Made by a program: the position numbers and the translations under genes. Positions 142 through 26,442 of a stretch of DNA of 35,111 bases are shown piece by piece (position 1 is the stretch's first letter; every line of letters begins with the position of its first letter). The stretch lies in NCBI RefSeq assembly GCF_004136575.1, contig NZ_NOIQ01000022.1, positions 1 to 35,111 of the forward strand. Reading direction: 5' to 3'. This stretch comes from Rothia koreensis. Lineage in GTDB: Bacteria; Actinomycetota; Actinomycetes; Actinomycetales; Micrococcaceae. Below the pieces are notes generated by a model. That model was not told the origin of the DNA and did not search any database. It saw nothing but the letters and a program-made list of their open reading frames with translations.

Positions 142-1128
142 CTACTTCTTCTTGACCAGGCCCTTGTCCGCCATCCAGTCGAAGGCCACGTCCCCTGGGT
201 CCTTGCCCTCGACGTCGACCTGATAATTCAGGTCCTGCATCGTCTTGTCGTCCAGGAGCTTGGAGACCTGCTCGAAACGGTCCTGGAGCTCGGGGTATTC
301 CTTGACCAGGTCGGAGTTGAAGACCGGTGAACCGTTGTACTTCGGGAAGAATTCCCTGTTGTCCTCGAGGACCGTCAGGTTCAGCGCGGGGATACGACCG
401 TCGGTCGTGAAGACCTCACCGAAGTTGCAGTCGCCCTTCGCCGTGGCCGCATAGACCGTCCCGGTGTCCATCACGGATACCTTGTCTTCCGGGACACCAT
501 CCGGTGCTCCGCGCTTCAGCCCGTACTTTTCCAGCATCGGGTTGAATCCGTCGCTGCGAGAGTTGAATTCCGACTCCACGCAGAAAGACCGTTCCTCGGG
601 CGGGACCTTGGCGATGTCCTCGAGGGTCTTGACCCCGTACTTGTCCTTGAAGTCCTGGCGAACCGCGAAGGCGTACGTATTGTTCAGCGGGGCGGGCTTG
701 CCCCACGTGAGATCGTTCTTGGCGTCCTCTTTCTTCACGGCCTCCCATTGCTCCTGGGCGTCCGGGATGGCCTTGTCCTTGCCCATGTAGGTCAGCCACG
801 CCGTGCCGGTGTACTCCCAGCCCAGCTGCGCCTGACCGCTGACCATGAGGTTGCGGGAGGGCTGGGACCCCGGAACGTTGGTCATGTCGGTTACGTCGAA
901 ACCCACCGCCTCCGCGGTCAGCACGGCGATCTTGCCGAGCACCAGTTGTTCGGTGAAGTTCTTGGAGGTCACCGTGACCTTTTTGTCTCCTGCGCCGTCG
1001 ATGGGCTTGATCGTTCCCGATTCCAGGTCGGGAAGGGTCGACGTCGCCGGCTGCAGGCCGCAACCGGCCAGCGCGAGCATCCCGACGGCACCGAGGGCCG
1101 CGAGTCGTAGCTTCTTCTGTCCAAACAT
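142..1128 (-). CDS. Glycine betaine/choline-type ABC transporter substrate-binding lipoprotein
   Basis: Extracytoplasmic receptor of a quaternary-ammonium or other compatible-solute ABC importer (OpuAC/ProX-like fold, 328 aa). It has a type II signal peptide: KK at residues 5-6, a hydrophobic core, and lipobox LAGC with the lipidated Cys at 23. The mature protein opens with VTSKNFTEQLVLGKI, typical of OpuBC/OpuCC/ProX receptors. It is the last gene of a four-gene operon, starting two bases after the stop of the preceding permease. The start is ATG. The family binds betaine, carnitine, choline or related solutes, but I cannot tell the ligand here because the aromatic cage residues need a structural alignment. 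The likely role is uptake under osmotic stress. Confidence 0.9.
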   Translation of the reverse strand: MFGQKKLRLAALGAVGMLALAGCGLQPATSTLPDLESGTIKPIDGAGDKKVTVTSKNFTEQLVLGKIAVLTAEAVGFDVTDMTNVPGSQPSRNLMVSGQAQLGWEYTGTAWLTYMGKDKAIPDAQEQWEAVKKEDAKNDLTWGKPAPLNNTYAFAVRQDFKDKYGVKTLEDIAKVPPEERSFCVESEFNSRSDGFNPMLEKYGLKRGAPDGVPEDKVSVMDTGTVYAATAKGDCNFGEVFTTDGRIPALNLTVLEDNREFFPKYNGSPVFNSDLVKEYPELQDRFEQVSKLLDDKTMQDLNYQVDVEGKDPGDVAFDWMADKGLVKKK

Positions 1129-1130
1129 GT

Positions 1131-1892
1131 CTAGATTCCCTTCGGTCGAGCGACCTGCTCGACGACGCGAGCAATCCAGTCCACGCTCAGCGCGAGGAGG
1201 GCCACCAACAGCGATCCCGCGATGAGGACCTTGTTCAAGGACAGGTTGACGCCCGTGGTGATCAGGAGGCCCAGACCGCCGCCGTCGACGAACGTTGCGA
1301 GAGTTGCCGTACCCACGAGGAGCACGAGTGCCGTGCGAATTCCGGCGAGCATGACGGGGACGGCCAGCGGCAGCTCGACCTTGAGGAGAACGGCCATGCT
1401 GCTCATGCCCATCCCCCGGGCAGACTCCACGAGCCTCGGGTCAACGGCGTCGAGCCCCACCATCGTGTTCTTCAGAACCGGGAGGAACGCGTACAGGATC
1501 AGGGCCAGAGCCGAGGCCTGGAACCCGAAACCGAGCCAGAAGGCGAACAACACGATCAGGCCGACCGGAGGTGCCGCCTGCCCGAGGTTCGCGATCGCCA
1601 TGAACGGGGTCCCCAACCATCGCATGGGTTTCCGGGTCAGGAGAACCCCGATCGGGATGGCGAGCACCAGCACGACGACCGCCGCAACCACGGTCAGCTG
1701 GAGGTGCTGCCAGGTCAGTTCCAGAAGATTCTTGGGATCGAGCGTGACCTTTTCCGAATCGGTCAGGTTGGCGCTGGTCAGCCACCATGCGATGGCCGCC
1801 AGGGCGAGAATGATCACGATCGGCTGGATCACGAGTCCGCCCCATTGGCGGCGACCGGTGTCCAGATCCGCCGACTGAGCTGACTGGGTCAT
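1131..1892 (-). CDS. ABC transporter permease, glycine betaine/choline type (second permease)
   Basis: Integral membrane subunit of the osmolyte importer, 253 aa, in the size range of OpuB/OpuC permeases. After a short hydrophilic N-terminus there is one membrane segment (about residues 22-40). The BPD_transp_1 core follows, with several further helices and the cytoplasmic loop PRLVESARGMGMSSMAVLLK, the EAA-like loop that contacts the ATPase. The ATG start overlaps the TGA stop of the ATPase gene in an ATGA junction, which points to translational coupling. Together with the permease at 3345-3986 it should form the heterodimeric channel. Family and operon role are clear; the substrate is inferred. 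Confidence 0.9.
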   Translation of the reverse strand: MTQSAQSADLDTGRRQWGGLVIQPIVIILALAAIAWWLTSANLTDSEKVTLDPKNLLELTWQHLQLTVVAAVVVLVLAIPIGVLLTRKPMRWLGTPFMAIANLGQAAPPVGLIVLFAFWLGFGFQASALALILYAFLPVLKNTMVGLDAVDPRLVESARGMGMSSMAVLLKVELPLAVPVMLAGIRTALVLLVGTATLATFVDGGGLGLLITTGVNLSLNKVLIAGSLLVALLALSVDWIARVVEQVARPKGI

Positions 1893-3352
1893 GAACGGTC
1901 ACCGCTTTCGTTCCACGGTTCTCGACCGGCCGCGCGCCCCGTGGGGTCTGCGGAGGACGTCGTGTCCCCCGCGACCGAGGCATCGGCGTCCTGGGACTCG
2001 GCGCCCGCGGTTCCTTCCGCATCGCCGGAGGCCTCGGAGTTCGTGCGCTGGACGGTCACCGGGATTTCCCCCGTGTTGTTCCCGACCGGCGTGTAGTCAC
2101 CCGGGGTGTAACGGCGCAACTCGGTGATGGCGTTCATGACCGTTTCGACGGTGATGATGCCCCGGTATCGTCCGCGTGCACCCTCGACCACGGCCTCACC
2201 GGTGCTCGCGACCAGCATCGTGTCGAGAGCGTCGTTGAGGGTGGACCTGGTTCCCACGAGGGGGAGCTCCTTGTCGAGGTGCGAGGGCACCGTGGTCATC
2301 CGTGAGAGCTGTTCCTTGGAGAGCCACTGGATCGGACGTTCGCGGTCGTCCACGATGACCGCCGAGTTGTACCCCGTCTTGTCGATGTGGCCGACCAGCT
2401 CGCGGGCGCTCTGACCAGGATGGCCGAGGACGCCGGAGATCAGGTCCACGTCGCCCACACGGGCCAGGCCCAGCTGCTTCAGGCCGGCGCCGGAGCCGAT
2501 GAAGTTCTCCACGAACTCGTTCGCGGGATTCGCGAGGATCCGCTCCGGGGTGTCGTACTGGACGATCCGGGCTCCTTCGTCGAAGACCGCGATCCAGTCG
2601 CCGAGTTTCACTGCCTCGTCGAAATCGTGGGTCACGCACACGATGGTCTTGTGCAATTCGCTCTGGATGTTGATGAGCTCGTCCTGGAGCCGTTGCCGGG
2701 TAATCGGGTCGACGGCGCCGAAAGGTTCGTCCATCAGGAGAACGGGCGGGTCGGCCGCGAGGGCGCGGGCGACGCCAACGCGCTGCTGCTGCCCGCCCGA
2801 GAGCTCTCGCGGGTAGCGGTTGCGGTACGTGTCCGCGTCCAGGGAGACCAGGTCCAGCAGTTCGTCCACGCGCTCGGCGATGCGCTTCTTGTCCCATCCG
2901 AGCATCTTGGGGACGAGGCCGATGTTGCTCGCGACGGTCATGTGCGGCAGAAGACCCCCGGCCTGGATCACGTAACCGATCTTTCGACGCAGCTTGTCGC
3001 CGTTGATCTTGGTGACGTCCTCGTCGCCGAGGATCAATCTGCCCTCCGTGGGCTCGATCAGGCGGTTGATCATCTTGAGGGTCGTGGTCTTGCCACACCC
3101 GGAGGGGCCGACGAACATGATGATCTGCCCGGCCGGGATTTCCAGGGTCAGCTGGTCGACCGCGGGCTTCTTGCCGCCGCCGTAGCGTTTGGTCACGTTC
3201 TCAATGAGGATCGAGGCGCCCTTCTGGCGCGCTTCTCCCCCGCGGTTCGCGTCGTTCCGGGACTCGTCGGCCGACGACGTCGTCTGCTCGGTTCCGACGC
3301 CCTGGGACGCGGCGTGGGAGGAGGTGGTGTTGTTTCGGGTGTTCTCAGACAC
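1889..3352 (-). CDS. Osmoprotectant ABC transporter ATP-binding protein with CBS domains
   Basis: Energizing ATPase of the compatible-solute importer (ProV/OpuBA/OpuCA type), 487 aa. Walker A GPSGCGKT lies near residues 82-89, signature LSGGQQQR and Walker B LLMDEP follow in order, and the switch His is in VTHDFDEA. After the nucleotide-binding domain come two weak CBS-like repeats (about residues 300-415), which in OpuA sense ionic strength or cyclic di-AMP. The start is GTG (3352) with AAGGGG upstream, and it overlaps the end of the preceding permease by eight bases. Two ends are unusual: about 45 low-complexity Ser/Thr/Asn residues before the ABC domain, and about 60 acidic, Ala/Ser-rich residues after the CBS pair. 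Both look like flexible tails. Confidence 0.92.
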   Translation of the reverse strand: MSENTRNNTTSSHAASQGVGTEQTTSSADESRNDANRGGEARQKGASILIENVTKRYGGGKKPAVDQLTLEIPAGQIIMFVGPSGCGKTTTLKMINRLIEPTEGRLILGDEDVTKINGDKLRRKIGYVIQAGGLLPHMTVASNIGLVPKMLGWDKKRIAERVDELLDLVSLDADTYRNRYPRELSGGQQQRVGVARALAADPPVLLMDEPFGAVDPITRQRLQDELINIQSELHKTIVCVTHDFDEAVKLGDWIAVFDEGARIVQYDTPERILANPANEFVENFIGSGAGLKQLGLARVGDVDLISGVLGHPGQSARELVGHIDKTGYNSAVIVDDRERPIQWLSKEQLSRMTTVPSHLDKELPLVGTRSTLNDALDTMLVASTGEAVVEGARGRYRGIITVETVMNAITELRRYTPGDYTPVGNNTGEIPVTVQRTNSEASGDAEGTAGAESQDADASVAGDTTSSADPTGRAAGREPWNESGDRS

Positions 3353-3986
3353 GGATACCCCTTGAAGTGGTCAGACGGCCGACGAGGATGAGGACCACGT
3401 CGAGTATGAGGGCGAGGATGATCACGGCGACGATGCCGGTCACGACGGACTCGAGGGAGTTCGCGCCTCCGAGCCGCGAGAGGCCCGAGAAGATGTAGCC
3501 ACCGAGTCCGGGGCCGAGCGCGTAGGCGGCGACCGCCGCAATGCCCATCGTCATCTGCGCCGAGACGCGCATTCCGGCCAGAATCACCGGCCAAGCGAGG
3601 GGCAGTTCGACGCGGAAGAATGTTTTGACGCGGCCCATGCCGATGCCTCGAGCGGCCTCGATCGTCGATTGGTCGACGCCGGCCAGACCGACCACCGCGT
3701 TGCGAAGGATCGGCAGCACGGCGAAGAAGGTCACGACGACGACGGCCGGAACCACGCCGAAGCCCAAGGGCACGATGAGGAGGCCGATCAGGGCGAAGGA
3801 CGGAATGGTGAGGCCGACCGCCGAGACGTTGTTCGCCACGGATGTCAGCGCACGGCTTCGGTAGCACAGCGCGGCCAGAACGATCGCGATGACCGTAGCG
3901 AGCACGAGGCACTGCACCACGAGGCTCATGTGTTGCCAGCTGGAGAACAGGATCTGTCCCCAGCGCTGGCGCAAGAATTCGCTCAT
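3345..3986 (-). CDS. ABC transporter permease, glycine betaine/choline type (first gene of operon)
   Basis: First gene of the four-gene osmolyte importer operon, 213 aa. The ATG at 3986 (MSEFLRQRWGQ) is chosen because AGGA sits seven bases upstream. The open frame continues 66 codons further, but that extension is polar and crosses the likely promoter. It has about five or six membrane segments and the EAA-type loop STIEAARGIGMGRVKTFFRVELP, which docks on the ATPase. Length and N-terminus (LSSWQHMSLV-like start) match OpuBB/OpuCB permeases. It pairs with the permease at 1131-1892. The next gene, the ATPase, begins eight bases before this one ends, so the operon is tightly coupled. Confidence 0.9.
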   Translation of the reverse strand: MSEFLRQRWGQILFSSWQHMSLVVQCLVLATVIAIVLAALCYRSRALTSVANNVSAVGLTIPSFALIGLLIVPLGFGVVPAVVVVTFFAVLPILRNAVVGLAGVDQSTIEAARGIGMGRVKTFFRVELPLAWPVILAGMRVSAQMTMGIAAVAAYALGPGLGGYIFSGLSRLGGANSLESVVTGIVAVIILALILDVVLILVGRLTTSRGIRV

Positions 3987-4008
3987 GGTGTTCCTAGTGT
4001 GATGACTT

Positions 4009-4066
4009 GACATGGGTGAATACCCACGTCCTGACCAAGGATAATCAGCCTGCTGATGAGATCCAA
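4009..4066 (-). promoter_or_regulatory. Candidate promoter, operator dyad and leader hairpin of the osmolyte operon
   Basis: On the minus strand TTGGAT (4061-4066) and TATCCT (4038-4043) are 17 bases apart, a plausible sigma-70-type promoter. The spacer contains the dyad ATCAGC-CT-GCTGAT (4044-4057). Just downstream, positions 4009-4028 can fold into an eight-pair hairpin with an ATTC loop at the 5' end of the predicted leader. A dyad inside the spacer would place a repressor, or a MerR-type distorter, between sigma contacts. Promoter strength and regulator are inferred. Confidence 0.4.
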
Positions 4067-4106
4067 CTATTTGCGGTAAGTGCAACCTTCCTAGTCCCCC
4101 TGGTTC

Positions 4107-4120
4107 ATCAGCATCCTGAT
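4107..4120. promoter_or_regulatory. Second dyad, likely operator on the metY side
   Basis: ATCAG-CATC-CTGAT repeats the half-site of the dyad at 4044-4057. The two centres are about 63 bases apart, close to six helical turns, so one dimeric regulator could bind both sites on one DNA face. It lies about 150 bases upstream of metY. A weak plus-strand promoter (TGGTTC at 4101 with an AT-rich -10 near 4124-4130) would also place the dyad in its spacer. Confidence 0.35.
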
Positions 4121-4273
4121 CAATGAATACGCGGGATGCGGAGCCGAGGAGCGGCGTCGTCACATAGCGGGCCGGACGCGACACAATCGAAACAGTTGCG
4201 GGCGGCCTCGCCGTCGGCCGACCATGAATGGAACATCGTTGTACGCGAGCATCGACCGTCGAAGAGGACCAGC

Positions 4274-5608
4274 ATGGCCGAACACACCTTTGGATTCAGA
4301 ACCCGCGCGCTCCACGCTGGGGGTACCCCCGACGCCGAGCACGGTTCGCGAGCGGTCCCGATCTACCAATCGACATCCTTCGTTTTCAAGGATTCCGACG
4401 ACGCCGCCAACCTCTTCGCCCTGCAGAAGTACGGCAACATCTACTCCCGCCTGGGGAATCCGACCGTCGCGGCCTTTGAGGAACGCGTCGCCTCGCTGGA
4501 GGGCGGCATCGGTGCCGTGGCCACGTCCTCCGGAATGGCCGCGGAATTCATCACTTTCGCCGCGCTCGCCCAGGCAGGCGACCACATTGTGTCCTCGGCG
4601 CAGCTCTACGGCGGAACCGTGACCCAGTTGGACGTCACGCTTCGACGCTTCGGGATCGAGACCACGTTCATCGACTCCATGGATCCGCAGGCGTTCAAGG
4701 ATGCGCTGCAGGAGAACACCAAGGCCGTGTACACCGAGGCCGTGTCGAATCCTGCGTGCCAGGTCGCGGACCTCGAAGGGCTCGCCGAGGTCGCCCACGA
4801 GGCAGGGATCCCTCTCGTGGTCGATGCGACCATTTCGACCCCATATCTGGTGCGGCCGCTCGAGCACGGCGCTGACATCGTGATCCATTCGGCCACCAAA
4901 TTCCTCGGAGGCCACGGGACCACGTTGGGCGGCGTCGTCGTCGAGTCCGGCCGCTTCGACTGGGGCAACGGAAACTTCCCGTCGATGACCGAACCGATCC
5001 CCTCCTACAACGACATCTCCTGGTGGGGGAACTTCGGTGAGTACGGGTTCCTGACCAAACTGCGCTCGGAACAGCTGAGAGACATCGGGCCGTCGCTCTC
5101 CCCGCAATCGGCGTTCCAGCTGATCCAGGGGGTGGAGACGTTGCCGCAGCGCATGGACGCCCACCTGAGCAATGCGCGCGAGGTCGTCGACTGGCTCGAT
5201 GCGGACCCCCGCATCGCCTACGTGAATTACGCGGGTCTCCCCGACCACCAGCACTACCAGCGGGGCCGCAAGTACCTTCCGCTCGGCGTCGGCTCGGTCT
5301 TCAGCTTCGGTGTTGCCGAAGCCAACGGCCTCTCGGGCCGTGAGGTCGGGGGCCGCTTCATCGAGAACCTGCAGCTCGCGAGCCACCTGGCGAATATCGG
5401 CGACGCCCGCACCCTGGTGCTGCACCCGGCTACCACGACCCACCAGCAGCTCTCCGCGGATCAACTGGCCGCGGGCGGCGTTGCGGAAGACCTCATCCGC
5501 ATCTCAGTGGGTCTCGAGGACCCGGAGGACATCCTCTGGGATCTGGATCAAGCCCTGACGGCGGCCACGGGCCTCACGCGCGAGTCCGCTGAACAGAAAG
5601 GTCTGTGA
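4274..5608 (+). CDS. metY: O-acetylhomoserine aminocarboxypropyltransferase (O-acetylhomoserine sulfhydrylase)
   Basis: PLP enzyme of the Cys/Met-metabolism (gamma-family) group, 444 aa, that makes homocysteine from O-acetylhomoserine and sulfide in direct sulfhydrylation. N-terminal FGFRTRALHAGGTPD, the YSRLGNPTVAAFEERVASLEGG block, the SSAQLYGGT loop, and PLP lysine motif HSATKFLGGHGTTLGG are all present. The long insertion with YNDISWWGNFGEYGFLTKLR separates MetY from the shorter MetB/MetZ enzymes. The ATG at 4274 is chosen for AGAGGA five bases upstream and for the family N-terminus; the frame opens 46 codons earlier without such support. The next gene starts three bases after the stop, so the two are probably co-transcribed. 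No SAM riboswitch is visible in its leader, unlike the MetE-like gene in this window. Confidence 0.93.
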   Translation: MAEHTFGFRTRALHAGGTPDAEHGSRAVPIYQSTSFVFKDSDDAANLFALQKYGNIYSRLGNPTVAAFEERVASLEGGIGAVATSSGMAAEFITFAALAQAGDHIVSSAQLYGGTVTQLDVTLRRFGIETTFIDSMDPQAFKDALQENTKAVYTEAVSNPACQVADLEGLAEVAHEAGIPLVVDATISTPYLVRPLEHGADIVIHSATKFLGGHGTTLGGVVVESGRFDWGNGNFPSMTEPIPSYNDISWWGNFGEYGFLTKLRSEQLRDIGPSLSPQSAFQLIQGVETLPQRMDAHLSNAREVVDWLDADPRIAYVNYAGLPDHQHYQRGRKYLPLGVGSVFSFGVAEANGLSGREVGGRFIENLQLASHLANIGDARTLVLHPATTTHQQLSADQLAAGGVAEDLIRISVGLEDPEDILWDLDQALTAATGLTRESAEQKGL

Positions 5609-5611
5609 GAC

Positions 5612-6121
5612 ATGACGAATCAGAACGCACGCACCTGGATCGGCCCGAGCGCGCCGGAACGCCTCAACATCCTGCACAACACGACGTCGGTTGCGATCGT
5701 GGGCATGTCGGACAAACCGGCACGCGCGAGCTACTTCGTCTCGACCTACTTGCTCTCGAGCTCCCCGTACCGGGTCTATTTCGTGAACCCGGTCCTCGCT
5801 GGCAAGGGAACCAAGGTTCTGGGCCAGGAGGTGTACCCCTCCCTCGATGCGCTGCCGGAAACGCCCGACGTCGTCGACGCATTCCGGAAGCACGACGATC
5901 TCCCGGGAGTTGCCGAGGAGGCCGTGAAGATCGGGGCCAAGACGCTCTGGTTGCAACTGGGGTCGTGGAACGAGGAAGCCGCGGCAATCGCCGAAGAGGC
6001 CGGCCTGAACGTGGTCATGGACCGGTGCATCAAGATCGAGCACGCCCGGTTCCACGGCGGCCTGCACCTGGCGGGCTTCAATACGGGGGTCATTTCCTCG
6101 AAGCGGCAACGGACGGCGTAA
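5612..6121 (+). CDS. CoA-binding (Rossmann) domain protein
   Basis: Small cytoplasmic protein of 169 aa made of a single CoA_binding_2 Rossmann domain, as in the YccU family. It shows the nucleotide-binding loop VAIVGMSDKPARASY (about residues 27-41), the strand YRVYFVNP, and the family motif DRCIKIEHARF near the C-terminus. The domain resembles the CoA-binding part of succinyl-CoA synthetase, but the biochemical role of stand-alone members is not settled. It starts three bases after the metY stop and is almost surely co-expressed. A link to homocysteine synthesis, for instance sensing acetyl-CoA or CoA levels, is my inference only. Confidence 0.85.
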   Translation: MTNQNARTWIGPSAPERLNILHNTTSVAIVGMSDKPARASYFVSTYLLSSSPYRVYFVNPVLAGKGTKVLGQEVYPSLDALPETPDVVDAFRKHDDLPGVAEEAVKIGAKTLWLQLGSWNEEAAAIAEEAGLNVVMDRCIKIEHARFHGGLHLAGFNTGVISSKRQRTA

Positions 6122-11195: not shown

Positions 11196-12716
11196 TTACG
11201 ACTTGCGATGCCCGCCGGCTGCCGGTCGGTTGGCGACCACCGGGTGCAATCCGGTGACGCCCTCCCGCTCGGCGGCAATCTCCAAGACCCGACCACGCAC
11301 GGCGAACCATCCGATGATCAGGGCCGGAATCACGATGACCATGGAGGCCAGGGTGAATGTGCCCACCGGGTAGTCGAGGGCGATCAGCACCACAACACCC
11401 GCCATGAAGAGGAGCACGAGCCAGTTGGCGTAGGGTGCCAGCGGAGCCCGGTAATGCGGCCGCTGGTACAGCCCCTTCTTCGTCAGGGAAACGAACTTCA
11501 TGTGGCAGATCGTGATGGTCAGCCATGCGCTCATGATGCCGATCGACGCGAAGTTCAGCACGATTTCGAAGGCGCTCTCCGGAACAAAGTAGTTCAGCAC
11601 CACACCCAGCAGCGCGACGACGGCGGTGAGGCAAATGCCGCCGTAGGGGACGCCGGAGCGGGTGAGATTCTGGGCGAATTTGGGCGCGGATCCGGCCATC
11701 GCCATCGAGTGCATGATGCGTCCCGTGGAGTACAGGCCCGCGTTGAGCGATGAGAGCGCCGCGGTGATCACCACGAGCTGCATGATCGGACCGGCGGCGT
11801 CGACCCCGATCGAGGAGAAGAACGTGACGAACGGGCTCTCCGTCTCGCTGAACGCGGTGTACGGGAGCAGGAGGCAGAGGAGCAGAACGGAACCGACGTA
11901 GAACACGGCGATACGCAGAATGACCGTGTTGATCGCTTTGGGGATGATCTTTTCCGCGTTCTTGGTCTCGCCCGACGTCGTGCCGACGAGCTCGATGCCG
12001 GCGTAGGCGAAGACCACGCCCTGAGTGATGATCAGAGCCGGCATCAGACCGTTGGGGAAGATCCCGCCGTTGCCGGACATGAGGTGGAACCCGGTGGGCT
12101 GGCCATTCGGGGTCCCGAAGATCACGAACACGATGCCGAGGGCGAGGAAGACGAGCAGGGCGATGACCTTGATCAGCGAGAACCAGAACTCCATTTCGCC
12201 GAAGACCTTGACCGAAATCAGGTTCATCACGACGACGATCACGACCACCAGGAAGGCGATGACCCATTGCGGGATCGCGGCGAAGACGTCGAAGTACTGC
12301 CCGAACCAGCGCACGTAGATCGCGATCGCGGTCGCATCCACGACCGCCGTGGTCGCCCAGAAGAGCCAATACATCCACCCCGAGAAGTACGCGGCCTTCT
12401 CGCCGAAGAACTCGCGGGAGTAGGAGACGAAGGAGCCGGACGACGGCCGGTGGACCACGAGCTCGCCGAGGCAACGGAGAATGAGATAGCCCATGAAACC
12501 GCAGACGGCATAAACGAGGAAGAGCGAGGGTCCGGCGGAGGCCAAGCGTCCACCTGCCCCCAGGAAGAGGCCGGTGCCGATGGCACCGCCGACGGCGATC
12601 ATTTGGAGTTGGCGGGGGCCGAGCCCTTTGTGGAAACCCGCCTGTTCATCATTGAATGTCTGTTCGGTGCCGTGGCTCTGGGGCTCGGCACCGGACCGCG
12701 AAGCTTTGGACGACAT
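11196..12716 (-). CDS. Amino-acid permease 1 (AAT family, L-asparagine permease-like)
   Basis: Proton-coupled amino-acid importer of the APC superfamily, 506 aa, about 12 membrane helices. It has the hallmark N-terminal motif LQMIAVGGAIGTGLFLGAGG, the helix-3 region GSFVSYSREFFGEKAAYFSGWMYW, and YAGIELVGTTSGET in the middle. The overall sequence is closest, from memory, to AnsP-type asparagine permeases, but lysine, GABA or aromatic permeases share this fold. It is one of four paralogues on this strand. C-terminus is short (PAAGGHRKS), lacking the acidic tails of the others. ATG at 12716 with AAGG upstream. Two GlnR-like boxes precede it and a terminator follows it, so it is probably a single-gene unit under nitrogen control (inference). 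Confidence 0.88.
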   Translation of the reverse strand: MSSKASRSGAEPQSHGTEQTFNDEQAGFHKGLGPRQLQMIAVGGAIGTGLFLGAGGRLASAGPSLFLVYAVCGFMGYLILRCLGELVVHRPSSGSFVSYSREFFGEKAAYFSGWMYWLFWATTAVVDATAIAIYVRWFGQYFDVFAAIPQWVIAFLVVVIVVVMNLISVKVFGEMEFWFSLIKVIALLVFLALGIVFVIFGTPNGQPTGFHLMSGNGGIFPNGLMPALIITQGVVFAYAGIELVGTTSGETKNAEKIIPKAINTVILRIAVFYVGSVLLLCLLLPYTAFSETESPFVTFFSSIGVDAAGPIMQLVVITAALSSLNAGLYSTGRIMHSMAMAGSAPKFAQNLTRSGVPYGGICLTAVVALLGVVLNYFVPESAFEIVLNFASIGIMSAWLTITICHMKFVSLTKKGLYQRPHYRAPLAPYANWLVLLFMAGVVVLIALDYPVGTFTLASMVIVIPALIIGWFAVRGRVLEIAAEREGVTGLHPVVANRPAAGGHRKS

Positions 12717-16589: not shown

Positions 16590-18176
16590 TCAGTCCTCGT
16601 CGTCGTGCCCGTCGTGAATCTCCGGGGAGATCACGGCGCGGGCCCGGTGCGGGTGGTGGGGGTGCTTGGTCTCGGCGGCCGGACGTGCGGCGACGATCGG
16701 GTGGGTCCCCGTGACGCCCTCGCGCTCCGCGGCCAGCTCCATCACCCGGTTCCTGACGAGGAACCAGCCCCCAACGAGCAACGGGATCAGGATCAGCATG
16801 GAGCCCAGCGTGTAGGTGCCCACGGGGTAGTCAATGGCCATGAGGACCAGGACGGAGACCAGGAACGCGACCGTCAGCCAGTTGGTCCATGGTGCCAGGG
16901 GCGCCCGGTACTGGGGTCGCGTGTACAAGCCCTTCTCGGAAAGGCTCACGAACTTCTTGTGGGACAGCGTCACCGCGGCCCACGAGGCCATCGTTCCGAG
17001 CGCGGAAATGTTGAGCACGATCTCGAAGGCCTGCTCGGGCACGAAGTAGTTCAGGATGACGCCGATCAACGACACCACGGCGGTCAGGCAGATCCCGCCG
17101 AAGGGCACACCCGAGGAATTGAGCTTCGCCGCGAACTTGGGTGCCGACCCGGCCATGGCCATCGAGTGCAGGATACGGCCCGTGGAGTAGAGCCCGGCGT
17201 TGAGCGACGACAGGGCGGCGGTGATGACAACCAATTGGACGATGGGTCCTGCAACGTCGATGCCGATCGAGGAGAAGAACGTCACGAACGGCGATTCCTT
17301 GTCGCTGTAGGCGGTGTACGGCATCAGCATGCACAGCAGGAGCACGGACCCGACGTAGAAGACCGCGATGCGCAGGATCACGGTGTTGATCGCTTTGGGG
17401 ATGATCTTCTCCGGGTTCCGGGTCTCCCCCGACGTCGTCCCCACGAGCTCGATGCCTGCGTAGGCGAAGACGACACCCTGGACCACCACGAGCGCCGCGA
17501 GCCCGCCGGCGGGGAAAAGACCCCCGTGGTCCGTGATGAGGTGAATGCCGGTGGGCTCGCCATTCGGCGATCCGAAGATCACGAAGATGATGCCGAGCAC
17601 CAGGAAGAGGACCAGAGTCGCGACCTTGATGAGGGAGAACCAGAACTCCATCTCACCAAATACTTTGACGGAAATGAGGTTGGTGACCAGCACGATCGCG
17701 ACGACGGCCAACGCACAGACCCACTGCGGAATGTTTCCGACGAAATCGCTGTATTTGCCGAACCAGCGCACGTAGATCGCGATCGCCGTCGCGTCGGCCA
17801 CCGCCGTCATGGCCCAGTTCAGCCAGTACAACCAGCCCGACACGTACGCGGCCTTCTCGCCGTAGAACTCTCGGGTGTAGGAAACGAACGAACCGGAGGA
17901 GGGCCGGTGGCACACCAGTTCCCCCAGCGAGCGAAGCATGAGGTATCCGAAGAATCCGCAGACTCCGTAGATGATGAAGAGCGACGGACCGGCCGAGGCC
18001 AGGCGTCCGCCCGCACCCAGGAACAGACCGGTGCCGATGGCTCCACCGATCGCGATCATTTGGAGTTGGCGGGCTCCGAGCCCCTTGTGGAGCCCCGCGT
18101 CCTCGTTGGCCACCACCCCGGTAGTGTCGTTGCTGCTCGGAGCAGGATTGTTATCAGGCGCAGATGTCGATGACAT
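16590..18176 (-). CDS. Amino-acid permease 2 (AAT family)
   Basis: Paralogue of permease 1, 528 aa, about 12 helices. Motifs LQMIAIGGAIGTGLFLGAGG and YAGIELVGTTSGET match permease 1 exactly at the core. The C-terminal cytoplasmic tail is extended and unusual: HPHHPHRARAV followed by an acidic end (HDGHDDED), suggesting metal- or pH-sensitive behaviour or a protein contact (inference). It contains GSPNGEPTGIHLITDHGG in an extracellular loop where the paralogues differ most. ATG with AAGG nine bases upstream. The gap above it (231 bases) separates it from permease 3, so whether they share a transcript is unclear. Confidence 0.87.
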   Translation of the reverse strand: MSSTSAPDNNPAPSSNDTTGVVANEDAGLHKGLGARQLQMIAIGGAIGTGLFLGAGGRLASAGPSLFIIYGVCGFFGYLMLRSLGELVCHRPSSGSFVSYTREFYGEKAAYVSGWLYWLNWAMTAVADATAIAIYVRWFGKYSDFVGNIPQWVCALAVVAIVLVTNLISVKVFGEMEFWFSLIKVATLVLFLVLGIIFVIFGSPNGEPTGIHLITDHGGLFPAGGLAALVVVQGVVFAYAGIELVGTTSGETRNPEKIIPKAINTVILRIAVFYVGSVLLLCMLMPYTAYSDKESPFVTFFSSIGIDVAGPIVQLVVITAALSSLNAGLYSTGRILHSMAMAGSAPKFAAKLNSSGVPFGGICLTAVVSLIGVILNYFVPEQAFEIVLNISALGTMASWAAVTLSHKKFVSLSEKGLYTRPQYRAPLAPWTNWLTVAFLVSVLVLMAIDYPVGTYTLGSMLILIPLLVGGWFLVRNRVMELAAEREGVTGTHPIVAARPAAETKHPHHPHRARAVISPEIHDGHDDED

Positions 18177-18407: not shown

Positions 18408-19985
18408 CTATTCGTCGTCTTCGTCGTCGAGGCGGATGGTGGTGTTGGAGCGTCCGTGGTCGAACGGTTCGTTGGTGTCGTCCGTGGTCGGCCACTGCGC
18501 GACCACCGGGAACTGGCCCGTGTAGCCCTCGCGCTGGGCCGCAACCTCCATCACCCGGCGTCGAACCATGAACCAGCCGATGATGAGCAGGGGAATGATG
18601 ATGACCATGGAGGCCAAGGTGTAGGTGCCCACGGGATAGTCGAAGGCGATCAGAATCATGACCGCCACGAAGAAAGCCATGGTGATCCAGTTGGTGAAGG
18701 GGGCCAACGGCGCCCGGTATTTCGGGCGCTGGTACAGCCCCTTCTTGGCCAGCGACACGAATTTCTGGTGGGGCAGGGTGATGGCGGCCCAGCCGACGAT
18801 GATTCCGACGGCCGACATGTTCAGCACGATCTCGAAGGCCGCCTCAGGGACGAAGTAGTTCAGCACGACGCCGAGCATCCCCACGCCCGTGGTCAGCAGA
18901 ATCCCCACGAACGGGACACCGCCCTTGGTCAGCTTCTGGGCGACCCGCGGAGCCGATCCCGCCATCGCCATCGAGTGCACGATGCGACCGGTCGAGTAGA
19001 GCCCGGCGTTGAGGGACGAGAGCGCGGCGGTGATGACCACGAGCTGCATGATCGGCCCGGCGGCGTCGACCCCGATCGAGGCGAAGAAGGTGACGAACGG
19101 GGATTCGTCGTCGCTGTAGCGCGTGTAGGGCAGCAAGAGGCAGAGGAGCAGGACGGAGCCCACGTAGAACACCGCGATCCTGAGGATCACGGAGTTGATG
19201 GCCCGGGGGATGACGCGTTCGGGCTCTTGGGTCTCGCCCGAGGCGGTGCCGACGAGTTCGATACCCGAATAGGCGAAGACCACGCCCTGGGAGACCACCA
19301 GTGCGGCCAGGAGGCCGTTGGGCAGCATGCCGCCGCTCTGGGAAATCAGGCTGAACCCTGTCGGCTCCCCCGAGGGCGATCCGAAAATCACGAAGAGGAT
19401 GCCCACGACCATGAATGCGACCAGTGCCGCGACCTTGACGATCGCGAACCAGAATTCCATCTCGCCGAAGACCTTGACCGAGATGAGGTTCATGACCGTG
19501 ACCGCCGCGATCACCAGGAACGCGAGGACCCACTGCGGGATGGACCCGATGAAGTCGATGTACTGGCCGAACCACCTGATGTAGATGGCCATCGCGGTTG
19601 CGTCCACGATCGTCGTGGTTGCCCAGCTCAGCCAGTACATCCACCCGGTGAAGTAGGCCGACTTCTCACCGAAGAACTCGCGACAGTACGAGACGAAGGA
19701 GCCCGACGACGGCCGGTGCACCACGAGTTCGCCCAACTGGCGCAGGATCAGGTACCCGAAGAATCCGGCCACGCCGTAGAGGATGAACAAGGTCGGACCG
19801 GCCGACTCGAGGCGGCCACCCGTCCCGAGGAACAAGCCCGTTCCGATCGAACCGCCGATAGCGATCATCTGGAGCTGGCGAGGGCTCAGGCCCTTCTTGA
19901 ACCCCTCCTGCTCGGCCTCGAATTGGTTCTGCGCGGCCTCGGATGAACGACTCGCCGCCGACGAGTCCGAGCCGGATGCTGCCAT
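18408..19985 (-). CDS. Amino-acid permease 3 (AAT family)
   Basis: Paralogue of permeases 1, 2 and 4, 525 aa. It has LQMIAIGGSIGTGLFLGTGG near residue 42 and YSGIELVGTASGET in the middle: Ser for Ala and Ala for Thr relative to permeases 1 and 2, changes at the substrate-site loop that may shift specificity. The N-terminal 30 residues are Ser/Ala/Glu-rich and differ from the others. The C-terminus ends with an acidic cluster (RLDDEDDE). GGGAGG lies five bases upstream of the ATG. The upstream region holds a candidate promoter and a perfect 14-base palindrome not seen at the other permeases, so it is probably under separate control. Confidence 0.87.
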   Translation of the reverse strand: MAASGSDSSAASRSSEAAQNQFEAEQEGFKKGLSPRQLQMIAIGGSIGTGLFLGTGGRLESAGPTLFILYGVAGFFGYLILRQLGELVVHRPSSGSFVSYCREFFGEKSAYFTGWMYWLSWATTTIVDATAMAIYIRWFGQYIDFIGSIPQWVLAFLVIAAVTVMNLISVKVFGEMEFWFAIVKVAALVAFMVVGILFVIFGSPSGEPTGFSLISQSGGMLPNGLLAALVVSQGVVFAYSGIELVGTASGETQEPERVIPRAINSVILRIAVFYVGSVLLLCLLLPYTRYSDDESPFVTFFASIGVDAAGPIMQLVVITAALSSLNAGLYSTGRIVHSMAMAGSAPRVAQKLTKGGVPFVGILLTTGVGMLGVVLNYFVPEAAFEIVLNMSAVGIIVGWAAITLPHQKFVSLAKKGLYQRPKYRAPLAPFTNWITMAFFVAVMILIAFDYPVGTYTLASMVIIIPLLIIGWFMVRRRVMEVAAQREGYTGQFPVVAQWPTTDDTNEPFDHGRSNTTIRLDDEDDE

Positions 19986-23265: not shown

Positions 23266-24858
23266 TCACCCCTTGTCGGAGCCGTCTTCAGGATCCTGGC
23301 TCTCGTCCTCGGCATGGATGATCGTCGTGCTTCCGTGACCGCGGCGCCCCTCGTGATGGGTGCGCTGGGCCGCGGGACGGTCCGCAACCACGGGGTAGAG
23401 ACCCGTGACGCCCTCACGCTCGGCCGCCAGTTCCCTGACCCGGCGTCGGACCACGAACCAGCCGATGATCAGGGCCGGAATGATGATGACCATGGTCGAC
23501 AACGTGTACGTGCCCACCGGGTAGTCGAAGCCGATCAGCACGATCACACCCGCCAGGAAGACCAGAGTGATCCAGTTCGTCACCGGAGCCCACGGCGCCC
23601 TGTACTTGGGCCGCCGGTACTTTCCCTGCTTGGTCAAGGAAACGAACTTCATGTGGGCCATGGTGATCGCGACCCAGCCGGCGATGATGCCGAGGGAGGC
23701 GATGTTGAGCACGATCTCGAAGGCGGACTCGGGCACGAAGTAGTTCAGCACGACGCCGAGGAGGGCCACCCCTGCGGTCAGCAGGATCCCGCCGTACGGA
23801 ACGCCGGACTTGGTGAGCCGCTGGGCGAACCGCGGCGCGGAACCCGCCATGGACATCGAGTGAAGTATGCGCCCCGTGGAATACAGCCCGGCGTTCAGGG
23901 ACGAGAGGGCCGCGGTGATGACCACGAGTTCCATGATCGGCCCGGCCGCTCCGACGTTGATCGAGGAGAAGAACGTGACGAACGGGGACTCGTCCTCGCT
24001 GAAGGCCGTGTAGGGCAGCAGAAGGGTGAGCAGGAAGATCGCGCCGACGTAGAAGATCGCGATGCGCAGGATGACCGTGTTGATCGCCTTGGGAATGACC
24101 TTGGCGGCGTCGCGGGTCTCGCCGGAGGTGGTGCCGACCAATTCGATCGAGGCATAGGCGAAGACCACGCCCTGCATGATGATCAGTGCCGGCATCAGAC
24201 CGTTCGGGAACAGGCCACCGTTTTCGGTAATCAGGCCGATGCCTCGAGGGGATCCCGTGGGTGTTCCGAAGATGACGAAAGCGATCGCGAGCACCAGGAA
24301 GACCACCAGGGCGGCGACCTTGATGAGGGCGAACCAGAATTCCATCTCCCCGAAGACCTTCACGGAGATGAGGTTCAGGGCCACGACCAGAACAATGACC
24401 AACAGCGCCACGAGCCACTGAGGTATGGCATCGACGAAGGCGCTGTACTGACCGAACCAGTGCACGTAGATCGCGATGGCCGTGGAGTCCACGATGGCCG
24501 TTGTCGCCCAGTTGAGCCAGTACATCCATCCCGAGACGTACGCAGCTTTCTCGCCGTAGAACTCGCGGGTGTAGGAGACGAACGACCCGGAGGACGGACG
24601 GTGAACCACCAGTTCGCCCAGCTGTCGGAGGATCAGATAGGCGATGATCCCGCACAGCGCATAGTCGAGAAACAAGGAGGGGCCGGCAGAAGCCAGGCGG
24701 CCACCTGCTCCCAGGAACAACCCGGTACCGATCGCCCCACCGATGGCGATCATCTGGAGCTGGCGCGGGCCGAGACCCTGCTTCATCCCGGTCTGTTCCT
24801 GCTCATACGCCATTTCTTCGGGATATTTTGCGGTGTGCCGCTGACTCGTGTCGGTCAT
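23266..24858 (-). CDS. Amino-acid permease 4 (AAT family)
   Basis: Fourth AAT paralogue, 530 aa from the chosen ATG at 24858, which has GAGGA five bases upstream; an ATG 19 codons earlier lacks one. Core motif LQMIAIGGAIGTGLFLGAGG is present. Two substitutions stand out: an Asp in the second membrane region (SLFLDYALCG, where the others have Val, Ile or Leu) and Ser in YASIELVGTTSGET. Both are near the substrate path in APC transporters, so its specificity may differ (inference). Several paralogue blocks differ here as well (GTPTGSPRGIGLITENGG). The C-terminal tail contains HHEGRRGHGS and an acidic end. Divergent from the SAM-controlled MetE-like gene. Confidence 0.88.
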   Translation of the reverse strand: MTDTSQRHTAKYPEEMAYEQEQTGMKQGLGPRQLQMIAIGGAIGTGLFLGAGGRLASAGPSLFLDYALCGIIAYLILRQLGELVVHRPSSGSFVSYTREFYGEKAAYVSGWMYWLNWATTAIVDSTAIAIYVHWFGQYSAFVDAIPQWLVALLVIVLVVALNLISVKVFGEMEFWFALIKVAALVVFLVLAIAFVIFGTPTGSPRGIGLITENGGLFPNGLMPALIIMQGVVFAYASIELVGTTSGETRDAAKVIPKAINTVILRIAIFYVGAIFLLTLLLPYTAFSEDESPFVTFFSSINVGAAGPIMELVVITAALSSLNAGLYSTGRILHSMSMAGSAPRFAQRLTKSGVPYGGILLTAGVALLGVVLNYFVPESAFEIVLNIASLGIIAGWVAITMAHMKFVSLTKQGKYRRPKYRAPWAPVTNWITLVFLAGVIVLIGFDYPVGTYTLSTMVIIIPALIIGWFVVRRRVRELAAEREGVTGLYPVVADRPAAQRTHHEGRRGHGSTTIIHAEDESQDPEDGSDKG

Positions 24859-25023
24859 GGATTCCTCTGCATGTCTCGACGCCGCCGGCCGACTGTTCGC
24901 CTGTGCGATGGGCAAGCCAGAGGAAAATGCGGCGTCTGTAGTTTTTACGAGAATCGTCGTCGGACCACCCCGGTGTGGCCCTGGCTACTTGTATTGGTGA
25001 TGTGCGTCCAAAAGACGCCATCG

Positions 25024-25057: not shown

Positions 25058-25154
25058 AGGATCTGGTCGAGAAATACCGTGTCACACGCCGCGACGGGCC
25101 GGAACCCGCTGGATTCCGGAGGAAGAACCGAGAAAACTGGGCCGGGCACACAGA

Positions 25155-25242
25155 CCATCCCGAGCGGCCGAGAGACTTGGCTCGACGACGCCGCAGCAAC
25201 CCGCGCTCCCGAAGCAGGTGCTACCGCCAAGACCGATGGAGG
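25155..25242 (+). ncRNA. SAM-I (S-box) riboswitch controlling the MetE-like gene
   Basis: The leader carries the S-box core in order: CCATC (P1 5' arm, 25155-25159), CCGAG, AGAGAC followed by TTGGCTCGACGACGCC, GCAGCAACC, then GAAGCAGGTGCTACCGCC and GATGG (P1 3' arm, 25235-25239). These are the conserved GAG..GGCnC..GA.GCC..GCAACC and GGTGCtA..CC blocks that form the SAM pocket and kink-turn. GATGG overlaps the Shine-Dalgarno GGAGG (25238-25242), six bases before the ATG. SAM binding should stabilise P1 and hide the ribosome site, a translational OFF switch. No separate terminator is seen. Confidence 0.9.
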
Positions 25243-25248
25243 AACAAC

Positions 25249-26442
25249 ATGCTGAACAGCGCCGACCGCATCCGCACGACCCACGTGGGCTCGCTCCCCC
25301 GCACCGACGAACTGATTCGGGCCAACGCCCGGCGCGCCCGCGGTGAGATCTCCGAGCCGGATTTCCAGGCAGTCCTGACCGAGTCGGTCGGCGACGTCGT
25401 GGAAAAGCAGGTCGAGTGGGGCATCGACGTCGTCAACGACGGCGAGTACGGTCACGCGATGGCGAGCGACGTCGACTACGGCGCGTGGTGGCACTATTCC
25501 TTCGCCAGGACCGGTGGCCTCGAAACCGTGGACAACACGTCCTTCCAGGAGATCCTCAAGACGCCGGGCAACGGTCGGTACAACAGCTTCGCGGTGCGCC
25601 GGGACTGGAACCGCTTCGCCGATTTCTACGAATCCATCAACCTGGGCAACGACCCGGACGGCGAATTCCCGATCGCGACGGGACCGCTGACTTACCAAGG
25701 GCAGGACGCTGTCGCAGCGGACATCAACAACCTGCGCACCGCGGTGGAGAAGAATGAGGCGTCGGAGGCGTTCATCGCGTCCCTGTCGCCAGGGTCGGCG
25801 TCGCGCATCGGCAATCACCACTACGCGACCGACGAAGAGTTCATCTATGCCTGGGCAGATGTGCTCCATGAGGAATACAAGGCCATCACCGACGCCGGAT
25901 TCATCGTGCAATTGGACGACCCCTCCATCGCGGAAGCCTGGGACCAGCTGACGCCCGAGCCCACGATCGAGGAGTACCTGCGGTTCAACCAGCTCGCGAT
26001 CGAGGCCGCGAACTATGCCTTGCGCGGCATTCCCGAGGAGCAGGTCCGCTTCCACCTCTGCTGGGGATCGTGGCACGGCCCCCACACCACGGACATCGAG
26101 ATCAAACACCTCATCGACTCGCTCTTCACGATCAACGCCGGAGCGTACGTCTTCGAGGCGGCGAACGTCCGCCACGCGCACGAGTGGAAGGACTGGGAGG
26201 GAGTGAGCCTCCCCGACGGCAAGCTGGTGATCCCCGGCGTCGTCTCTCACTCGACCAACGTGGTCGAGCATCCCGAGCTCGTGGCCCAGCGGATCGAGCA
26301 ATACGCCTCCGTCCTGGGCAAGGAGAACGTGATCGCCGGGACCGACTGTGGTCTGGGCGGTCGGCTCCATCCCCAGGTCGCCGAGGCCAAGCTCAAGTCC
26401 CTGACCGAGGGCGCGAGGATCGCCACCGAGCGCCTGTACTGA
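25249..26442 (+). CDS. Cobalamin-independent methionine synthase-like protein (MetE C-terminal-domain type)
   Basis: Homologue of the catalytic C-terminal half of MetE, 397 aa, as in the B. subtilis YxjG/YxjH group. It begins with IRTTHVGSLPRT and has zinc ligands in the expected order: His 269 and Cys 271 (FHLCWGS), Glu 303 (FEAANVRH) and Cys 367 (AGTDCGLG). The family transfers a methyl group to homocysteine or other thiols; the methyl donor of short members is uncertain because the N-terminal half of MetE is missing. The SAM riboswitch directly upstream strongly supports a role in methionine supply. The start is ATG 25249 (GGAGG upstream); the frame opens 24 codons earlier inside the aptamer. 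Confidence 0.9.
   Translation: MLNSADRIRTTHVGSLPRTDELIRANARRARGEISEPDFQAVLTESVGDVVEKQVEWGIDVVNDGEYGHAMASDVDYGAWWHYSFARTGGLETVDNTSFQEILKTPGNGRYNSFAVRRDWNRFADFYESINLGNDPDGEFPIATGPLTYQGQDAVAADINNLRTAVEKNEASEAFIASLSPGSASRIGNHHYATDEEFIYAWADVLHEEYKAITDAGFIVQLDDPSIAEAWDQLTPEPTIEEYLRFNQLAIEAANYALRGIPEEQVRFHLCWGSWHGPHTTDIEIKHLIDSLFTINAGAYVFEAANVRHAHEWKDWEGVSLPDGKLVIPGVVSHSTNVVEHPELVAQRIEQYASVLGKENVIAGTDCGLGGRLHPQVAEAKLKSLTEGARIATERLY

Follow-up and report, generated by a model that had tools for sequence, protein, structure and literature searches.

A SAM-I riboswitch that probably turns off translation directly precedes a MetE-core gene in Rothia koreensis

The leader of a short MetE-like gene of Rothia koreensis carries a SAM-I (S-box) riboswitch aptamer (positions 25152-25242, + strand) that very probably turns translation off directly. 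Positions refer to the window, the whole 35,111-nt stretch of contig NZ_NOIQ01000022.1 that was analysed. The ribosome-binding site, GGAGG at 25238-25242, has its first two bases inside the 3´ arm of P1, GAUGG at 25235-25239, and the gene (25249-26442, +) starts just downstream. From what is known of the family we infer that the aptamer would bind SAM and alternate between two states in vivo. At low SAM, P1 would open frequently enough to give the ribosome access to GGAGG, and the methionine-synthase-like enzyme would be made. At high SAM, the ligand would hold the aptamer folded and P1 closed. Two of the ribosome-site bases would then be paired, the other three would lie against the helix end, and initiation would fall.

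The aptamer was found with the Rfam model RF00162 (48.9 bits against a gathering score of 44.4, E 1.9e-08), in an alignment that spans the full length of the model (1-108 of 108). It is the sole Rfam match at gathering score in the whole window, and its score lies 4.5 bits above the cut-off. The preliminary description had recognised all core S-box blocks in this leader, and the covariance search confirms an S-box there. Five standard pairs form P1, from 25155-25239 through 25159-25235, with the 5´ arm CCAUC at 25155-25159 and the 3´ arm placed by the sequence as well as by the RF00162 and Rothia alignments. Further out, the model has three more positions (25152-25154 with 25240-25242) at which no standard pairs form, so P1 and the ribosome site share two bases. 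The 5´ arm of the outer P2 stem (25164-25168) pairs with 25190-25194, and UUGG in the P2 loop (25177-25180) pairs with CCAA (25227-25230) in a pseudoknot. P3 (25195-25222), as drawn from both alignments, has AGCA/UGCU and CC/GG at its base and a short distal part. All 23 scored pairs of P1, P2, the P3 base and the pseudoknot are standard in the window. Also kept are GCAACC, GGUGC and the A-U/U-A step of P1, which we take to be SAM contacts. The A that precedes GAG in J1/2 is C here; the resulting CCCGAG follows P1 in all five Rothia S-boxes of the MetE-core class, while the second position is A in the Rfam consensus and in 28 of 34 aligned Rothia S-boxes.

Pair conservation was assessed in an alignment of 34 of 61 Rothia S-boxes, hand-picked to cover the gene classes. 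Standard pairs fill 781 of 782 cells, compared with 97.1% when columns are shuffled (none of 500 shuffles reaches the observed value) and 25-51% for slid partners. One of five measures, the number of further pair types, was not above the shuffles (10 observed, 10.2 shuffled). The P1 pairs are kept in 34/34 rows. Both-sided changes occur in six of 23 pairs, one in P1 (C-G, U-A, U-G), three in P2 and two in the pseudoknot. For the pseudoknot the window has UUGG/CCAA, most rows have CUGG/CCAG and two have CUAG/CUAG; one locus (L151) shows a single mismatch. Judged by these pairs, the S-box structure in the window is confirmed as real, beyond chance. It is nonetheless conceivable, if very unlikely, that the aptamer of this strain is degenerating and has lost its response, as might be read from the narrow margin of its score, the short distal P3, the A-to-C departure following P1, and the full loss or remnants of the aptamer in some relatives (L134, L119 and L124, described below). 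Against decay, every pair of P1, P2, the P3 base and the pseudoknot is intact in the window, the same pairs are kept in all five Rothia leaders, and where relatives have lost the aptamer it has visibly been cut out.

That GATGG and GGAGG share bases, as the preliminary description had it, can be read directly from the sequence, with the ATG at 25249-25251. The start codon begins nine bases past P1, and six bases separate it from GGAGG. With an assumed anti-SD strand, predicted anti-SD pairing weakens from -9.3 kcal/mol with P1 open to -3.8 kcal/mol with P1 closed. Folding the leader in a calculation that leaves out ligand, pseudoknot and transcription order gave P1 a probability of 0.001 and a cost of 5.4 kcal/mol when forced. 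In this ligand-free fold the Gs of the ribosome site are paired within a different hairpin, so folding does not demonstrate an open site without SAM. The earlier suggestion that there is no separate expression platform also stands; the leader lacks space for one.

A working aptamer might instead act mainly on the amount of transcript, through Rho-dependent termination or RNA decay that follows the exclusion of ribosomes, and less on initiation itself. The two effects are inseparable by sequence, and the Xanthomonas SAM-I switch is described, in the available part of the source, as mainly though not solely translational (PMC7270179). A scan of the + strand between aptamer and gene found no terminator-like site, however, and GGAGG is followed by six bases only before the ATG, so that we consider a chiefly transcript-level effect unlikely and prefer direct control of translation.

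We searched 35 Rothia genomes and obtained 61 RF00162 matches in 29 of them, all retained, including five below the curated cut-off. By next gene they fall into metF (22), a sulfonate-type ABC ATPase (20), an acyl-CoA-synthetase-like gene (12), the MetE-core gene (5) and metN (2), classes that were called by eye from N-terminal sequence, with an NCBIfam check of a single member from each of three classes (ABC, acyl-CoA-synthetase and metN). The window genome (2.9 Mb, 44 contigs) has three, before metF-metE, an ABC transporter and the MetE-core gene. For the ABC, acyl-CoA-synthetase and MetE-core classes, a long frame starts at most 13 bases from P1 in 37/37 cases, all with GATGG. A GATAG arm, which would spoil the ribosome site, is found in none of these 37 direct cases versus 16 of the 24 others, a comparison uncontrolled for gene class and kinship. 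The Fisher value of this split, 3.6e-9, likewise ignores both and is no true probability. Most direct cases (34 of 37) have a five-pair P1, most metF cases (20 of 22) a six-pair one. We also noted that the S-boxes before the acetate--CoA-ligase-like gene (L160:3-1496, -, and 11 other Rothia loci; 12/61) lie in some genomes ~3 kb from the one before the sulfonate-type ABC transporter.

These counts bear on whether the overlap is a coincidence arising from a purine-rich P1 end. The SAM-I consensus is indeed rich in purines at its 3´ end, and the ribosome site merely abuts P1 in 25 of 30 leaders of the MetE-core gene. Yet 37 of the 61 Rothia S-boxes have a frame that starts no more than 13 bases from P1, and the start lies 5-19 bases from P1 in all 30 leaders, which leaves coincidence only a very slight chance, the smallest of the alternatives to direct translational control.

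The metF class is laid out in another way. Its P1 arm is GATAG in 16 of 22 cases. In 19 cases, 65-126 bases separate P1 from the start nearest the conserved N-terminus of MetF, and in one case 17 bases do. No start at the MetF N-terminal motif was found in the remaining two; of these, one shows a frame that begins at 88, the other no frame. In three metF leaders (L163, L164 and L052), the P1 3´ arm reads GATAGAA and a complementary TTCTATC lies further down. As read from these sequences, TTCTATC could compete for the P1 arm, and metF switches may use a separate platform. One metF-type S-box (L044, G047:C6:160715-160804) lacks a long reading frame within 260 bases, and its genome also lacks a match to the MetE N-terminal half; the operon may have been lost there.

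Relatives of the MetE-core protein were confirmed at least 583 times in named genomes, and the best 80 were kept as loci. Among the matches listed, Kocuria sp. TGY1127_2, Rothia uropygioeca and Kocuria sp. 36 have the nearest named proteins (91%), followed by Rothia santali and Curtobacterium sp. S6 (83%) and then further Rothia. A SAM-I model built from the 34 Rothia S-boxes and run on the 80 loci and the window gave 32 matches of ≥72 bits and three of <17 bits. Setting aside the window, two extra S-boxes in L135, one that precedes a metY-like gene in L090 and one in L140, an S-box lies directly before the MetE-core gene in 27 of the best 80 loci (before the first tandem copy in L103 and L127). 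Of these, 10 are labelled Kocuria and 13 Arthrobacter; two are the Rothia-type Kocuria sp. 36 and Curtobacterium S6, and the last two bear labels (Sporosarcina and Vibrio) at odds with their position among Arthrobacter. The genes labelled Sporosarcina beigongshangi (L079), Vibrio cholerae 35D (L110) and Curtobacterium sp. S6 (L064) group with Arthrobacter or Rothia; these labels probably reflect contamination or wrong names.

Of the 53 loci without an S-box, 23 were scanned with Rfam and the remaining 30 with the SAM-I model alone. The Rfam scan placed a SAM-IV riboswitch before the MetE-core gene in two Arthrobacter (L093:5859-5982 and L098:5861-5985) and after it in L095 (7336-7448), and detected no SAM riboswitch at gathering score in the other 20. 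The Rothia-built model found no S-box in 12 loci labelled Rothia (L065-L076). Two close orthologues (L008 and L009, 82-83% identity) lack the aptamer too, so it is dispensable for the gene. Arthrobacter ipis (L134) retains the 5´ arm of P1 and the ribosome site, with two CCGA repeats at the apparent cut, and from this sequence the aptamer appears to have been cut out between the repeats. Shorter S-box remnants persist in L119 and L124; all three lie just upstream of position 6001 of their loci. In Rothia nasimurium, a long, perfect-looking inverted repeat lies upstream of the orthologue (L012:1234-1310) and weakly matches an unrelated microRNA model, and similar sequence occurs in L010, L014 and L017. 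Across the neighbourhoods of the 80 loci there was no constant partner gene, and many of the shared clusters were shadow frames.

In a 24-row tree, the five Rothia S-box rows group together among the Rothia rows (99/98), with the S-box label given to just these five rows, while L077, L082 and L092 in the same tree carry S-boxes too. A recent gain in one Rothia clade was considered and dropped, since the Rothia-built model found S-boxes before Kocuria and Arthrobacter orthologues. Of the 80 loci, 59 were picked for a 58-row tree; two (L085 and L087) were removed because their matched sequence contains an internal stop, and the window was added to the other 57. On this tree the S-box label needs at least eight changes, six of them forced by well supported branches. 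As far as the tree goes, it is open both to an old S-box with losses and to several gains.

We compared 30 leaders of the MetE-core gene, those of the 27 S-box loci, the window, L006 and L007. Five Rothia-clade leaders read GATGGAGG, in which the ribosome site overlaps P1; there the predicted anti-SD pairing (assumed anti-SD strand) is -9.3 kcal/mol with P1 open and -3.5 or -3.8 kcal/mol once P1 is closed. For the other 25, the ribosome site follows P1, in the form GATGGAAAGGA, GATGGAAGGA or close to these, and closing P1 costs 0.4-1.6 kcal/mol of predicted anti-SD pairing (same assumed strand). The overlap is thus a trait of the Rothia clade. Collectively, we counted for direct translational control the RF00162 match, the kept pairs and pseudoknot, the nine-base spacing to the ATG, GATGG in 37/37 direct-type Rothia S-boxes, the drop in anti-SD pairing, and SAM-I or SAM-IV before orthologues; against it we counted the overlap of only two bases, the ligand-free fold, the CCCGAG departure and the aptamer-free close orthologues.

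The layout of the window switch is already published, and the window S-box adds one more case. Barrick and Breaker 2007 (PMC2258182), in the part of the paper available, state the layout of SAM-I riboswitches with direct translation attenuation and their frequency in Actinobacteria and Cyanobacteria, and use a rule of 15 bases from P1 to the start codon. The window switch resembles this type in being actinobacterial, with a start codon within that distance (nine bases) and a ribosome site in the 3´ side of P1. Nothing basic differs from what that part describes; the five-pair P1 of the window covers two of the five ribosome-site bases. The Xanthomonas campestris met riboswitch, as described in the available text (PMC7270179), likewise combines a SAM-I aptamer with translational control of methionine synthesis (predicted for the window), but it has a long platform with anti-SD hairpins and initiator tRNA binding, for which the window has no room. 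Lactobacillus paracasei yxjH-luxS, likened here by description, also places a short MetE-like gene behind an RNA leader linked to methionine; according to the portion of the source available this leader is a T-box (PMC6004538), whereas that of the window is an S-box. What is new is the S-box before the MetE-core gene in 27 of the best 80 loci, SAM-IV in two others, and the restriction of the P1 overlap to the Rothia clade. Bacillus subtilis yxjG/yxjH carry S-boxes, and the S-boxes of Gram-positive bacteria have been compared in earlier studies. A literature search that covered subscription journals thinly returned no recognised account of a MetE-core gene with an S-box in Micrococcaceae, an absence that is accordingly unproven.

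The earlier assignment of the gene as a homologue of the C-terminal half of MetE is upheld, with Meth_synt_2 as the sole Pfam domain of the 397-aa protein; the N-terminal folate-binding half of full-length MetE (Meth_synt_1) was not found in it. The best NCBIfam model scored 93 bits against a cut-off of 406, and the protein thus fits no named NCBIfam subfamily. The zinc residues H269, C271, E303 and C367 and the homocysteine residues S15, E66 and D223 are invariant in 11 orthologues and align by profile with 3RPD and 1T7L. In the available part of Price et al. 2021 (PMC7857596), core methionine synthases are assigned H, C, E and C as zinc residues and S, E and D as homocysteine residues. The protein shares these with MesA-MesD, as it shares having the MetE catalytic half without the folate-binding half. 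It differs from MesD, going by the same text, in that the window genome has no match to MesX (DUF1852, PF08908), which 1 of the 35 Rothia genomes has, and from MesA, MesB and MesC, for which a corrinoid protein is the likely methyl donor, in that this genome has no match to B12-binding PF02310. The window genome carries a full MetE, and searches for Met_synt_B12 (MetH) and S-methyl_trans found no match. In three other Rothia genomes (G013, G018 and G047, listed at 99-100% completeness), the gene is present and PF08267, PF02965 and PF08908 have no match.

Within the window, metY lies at 4136-5608 (+), and a search of 3353-4400 gave no Rfam match at E up to 1, in agreement with the earlier observation that this gene lacks an S-box leader. 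The accompanying claim that metY and the MetE-core gene are wired differently holds within the window but not in an Arthrobacter relative (L090), which has S-boxes before a metY-like gene (2776-2888) and the MetE-core gene (5886-5982). The MetE-core gene is flanked by an amino-acid permease frame in the opposite direction upstream (23266-24915) and a PTS EIIA gene downstream. This permease is one of four within 14 kb, all on the - strand (the others at 11196-12716, 16590-18176 and 18408-19985), and a glycine-betaine-type ABC transporter lies at 142-3352.

The methionine function first proposed for the gene is strengthened by SAM-I before it in 27 of the best 80 loci and SAM-IV before two more, and such riboswitch control, as predicted from these sequences, argues for methionine supply by the MetE-core enzyme. 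We tentatively raise the possibility, which we think is less probable than its opposite, that these genes form an additional folate-independent family of methionine synthases, which is common among Micrococcaceae and occurs repeatedly under SAM-I or SAM-IV control, and in which the ribosome site has moved in Rothia from beside P1 into it, from a block by proximity to a block by pairing. Such a family would need neither MesX nor a B12 protein, and its methyl donor would therefore be one not yet described. Known core-synthase partners were not found in this genome, and two classes of SAM riboswitch suggest that a family named by homology alone supplies methionine. The overlapping, abutting and deleted versions of the leader form a natural set bearing on how much pairing a five-pair P1 must have to block the ribosome.
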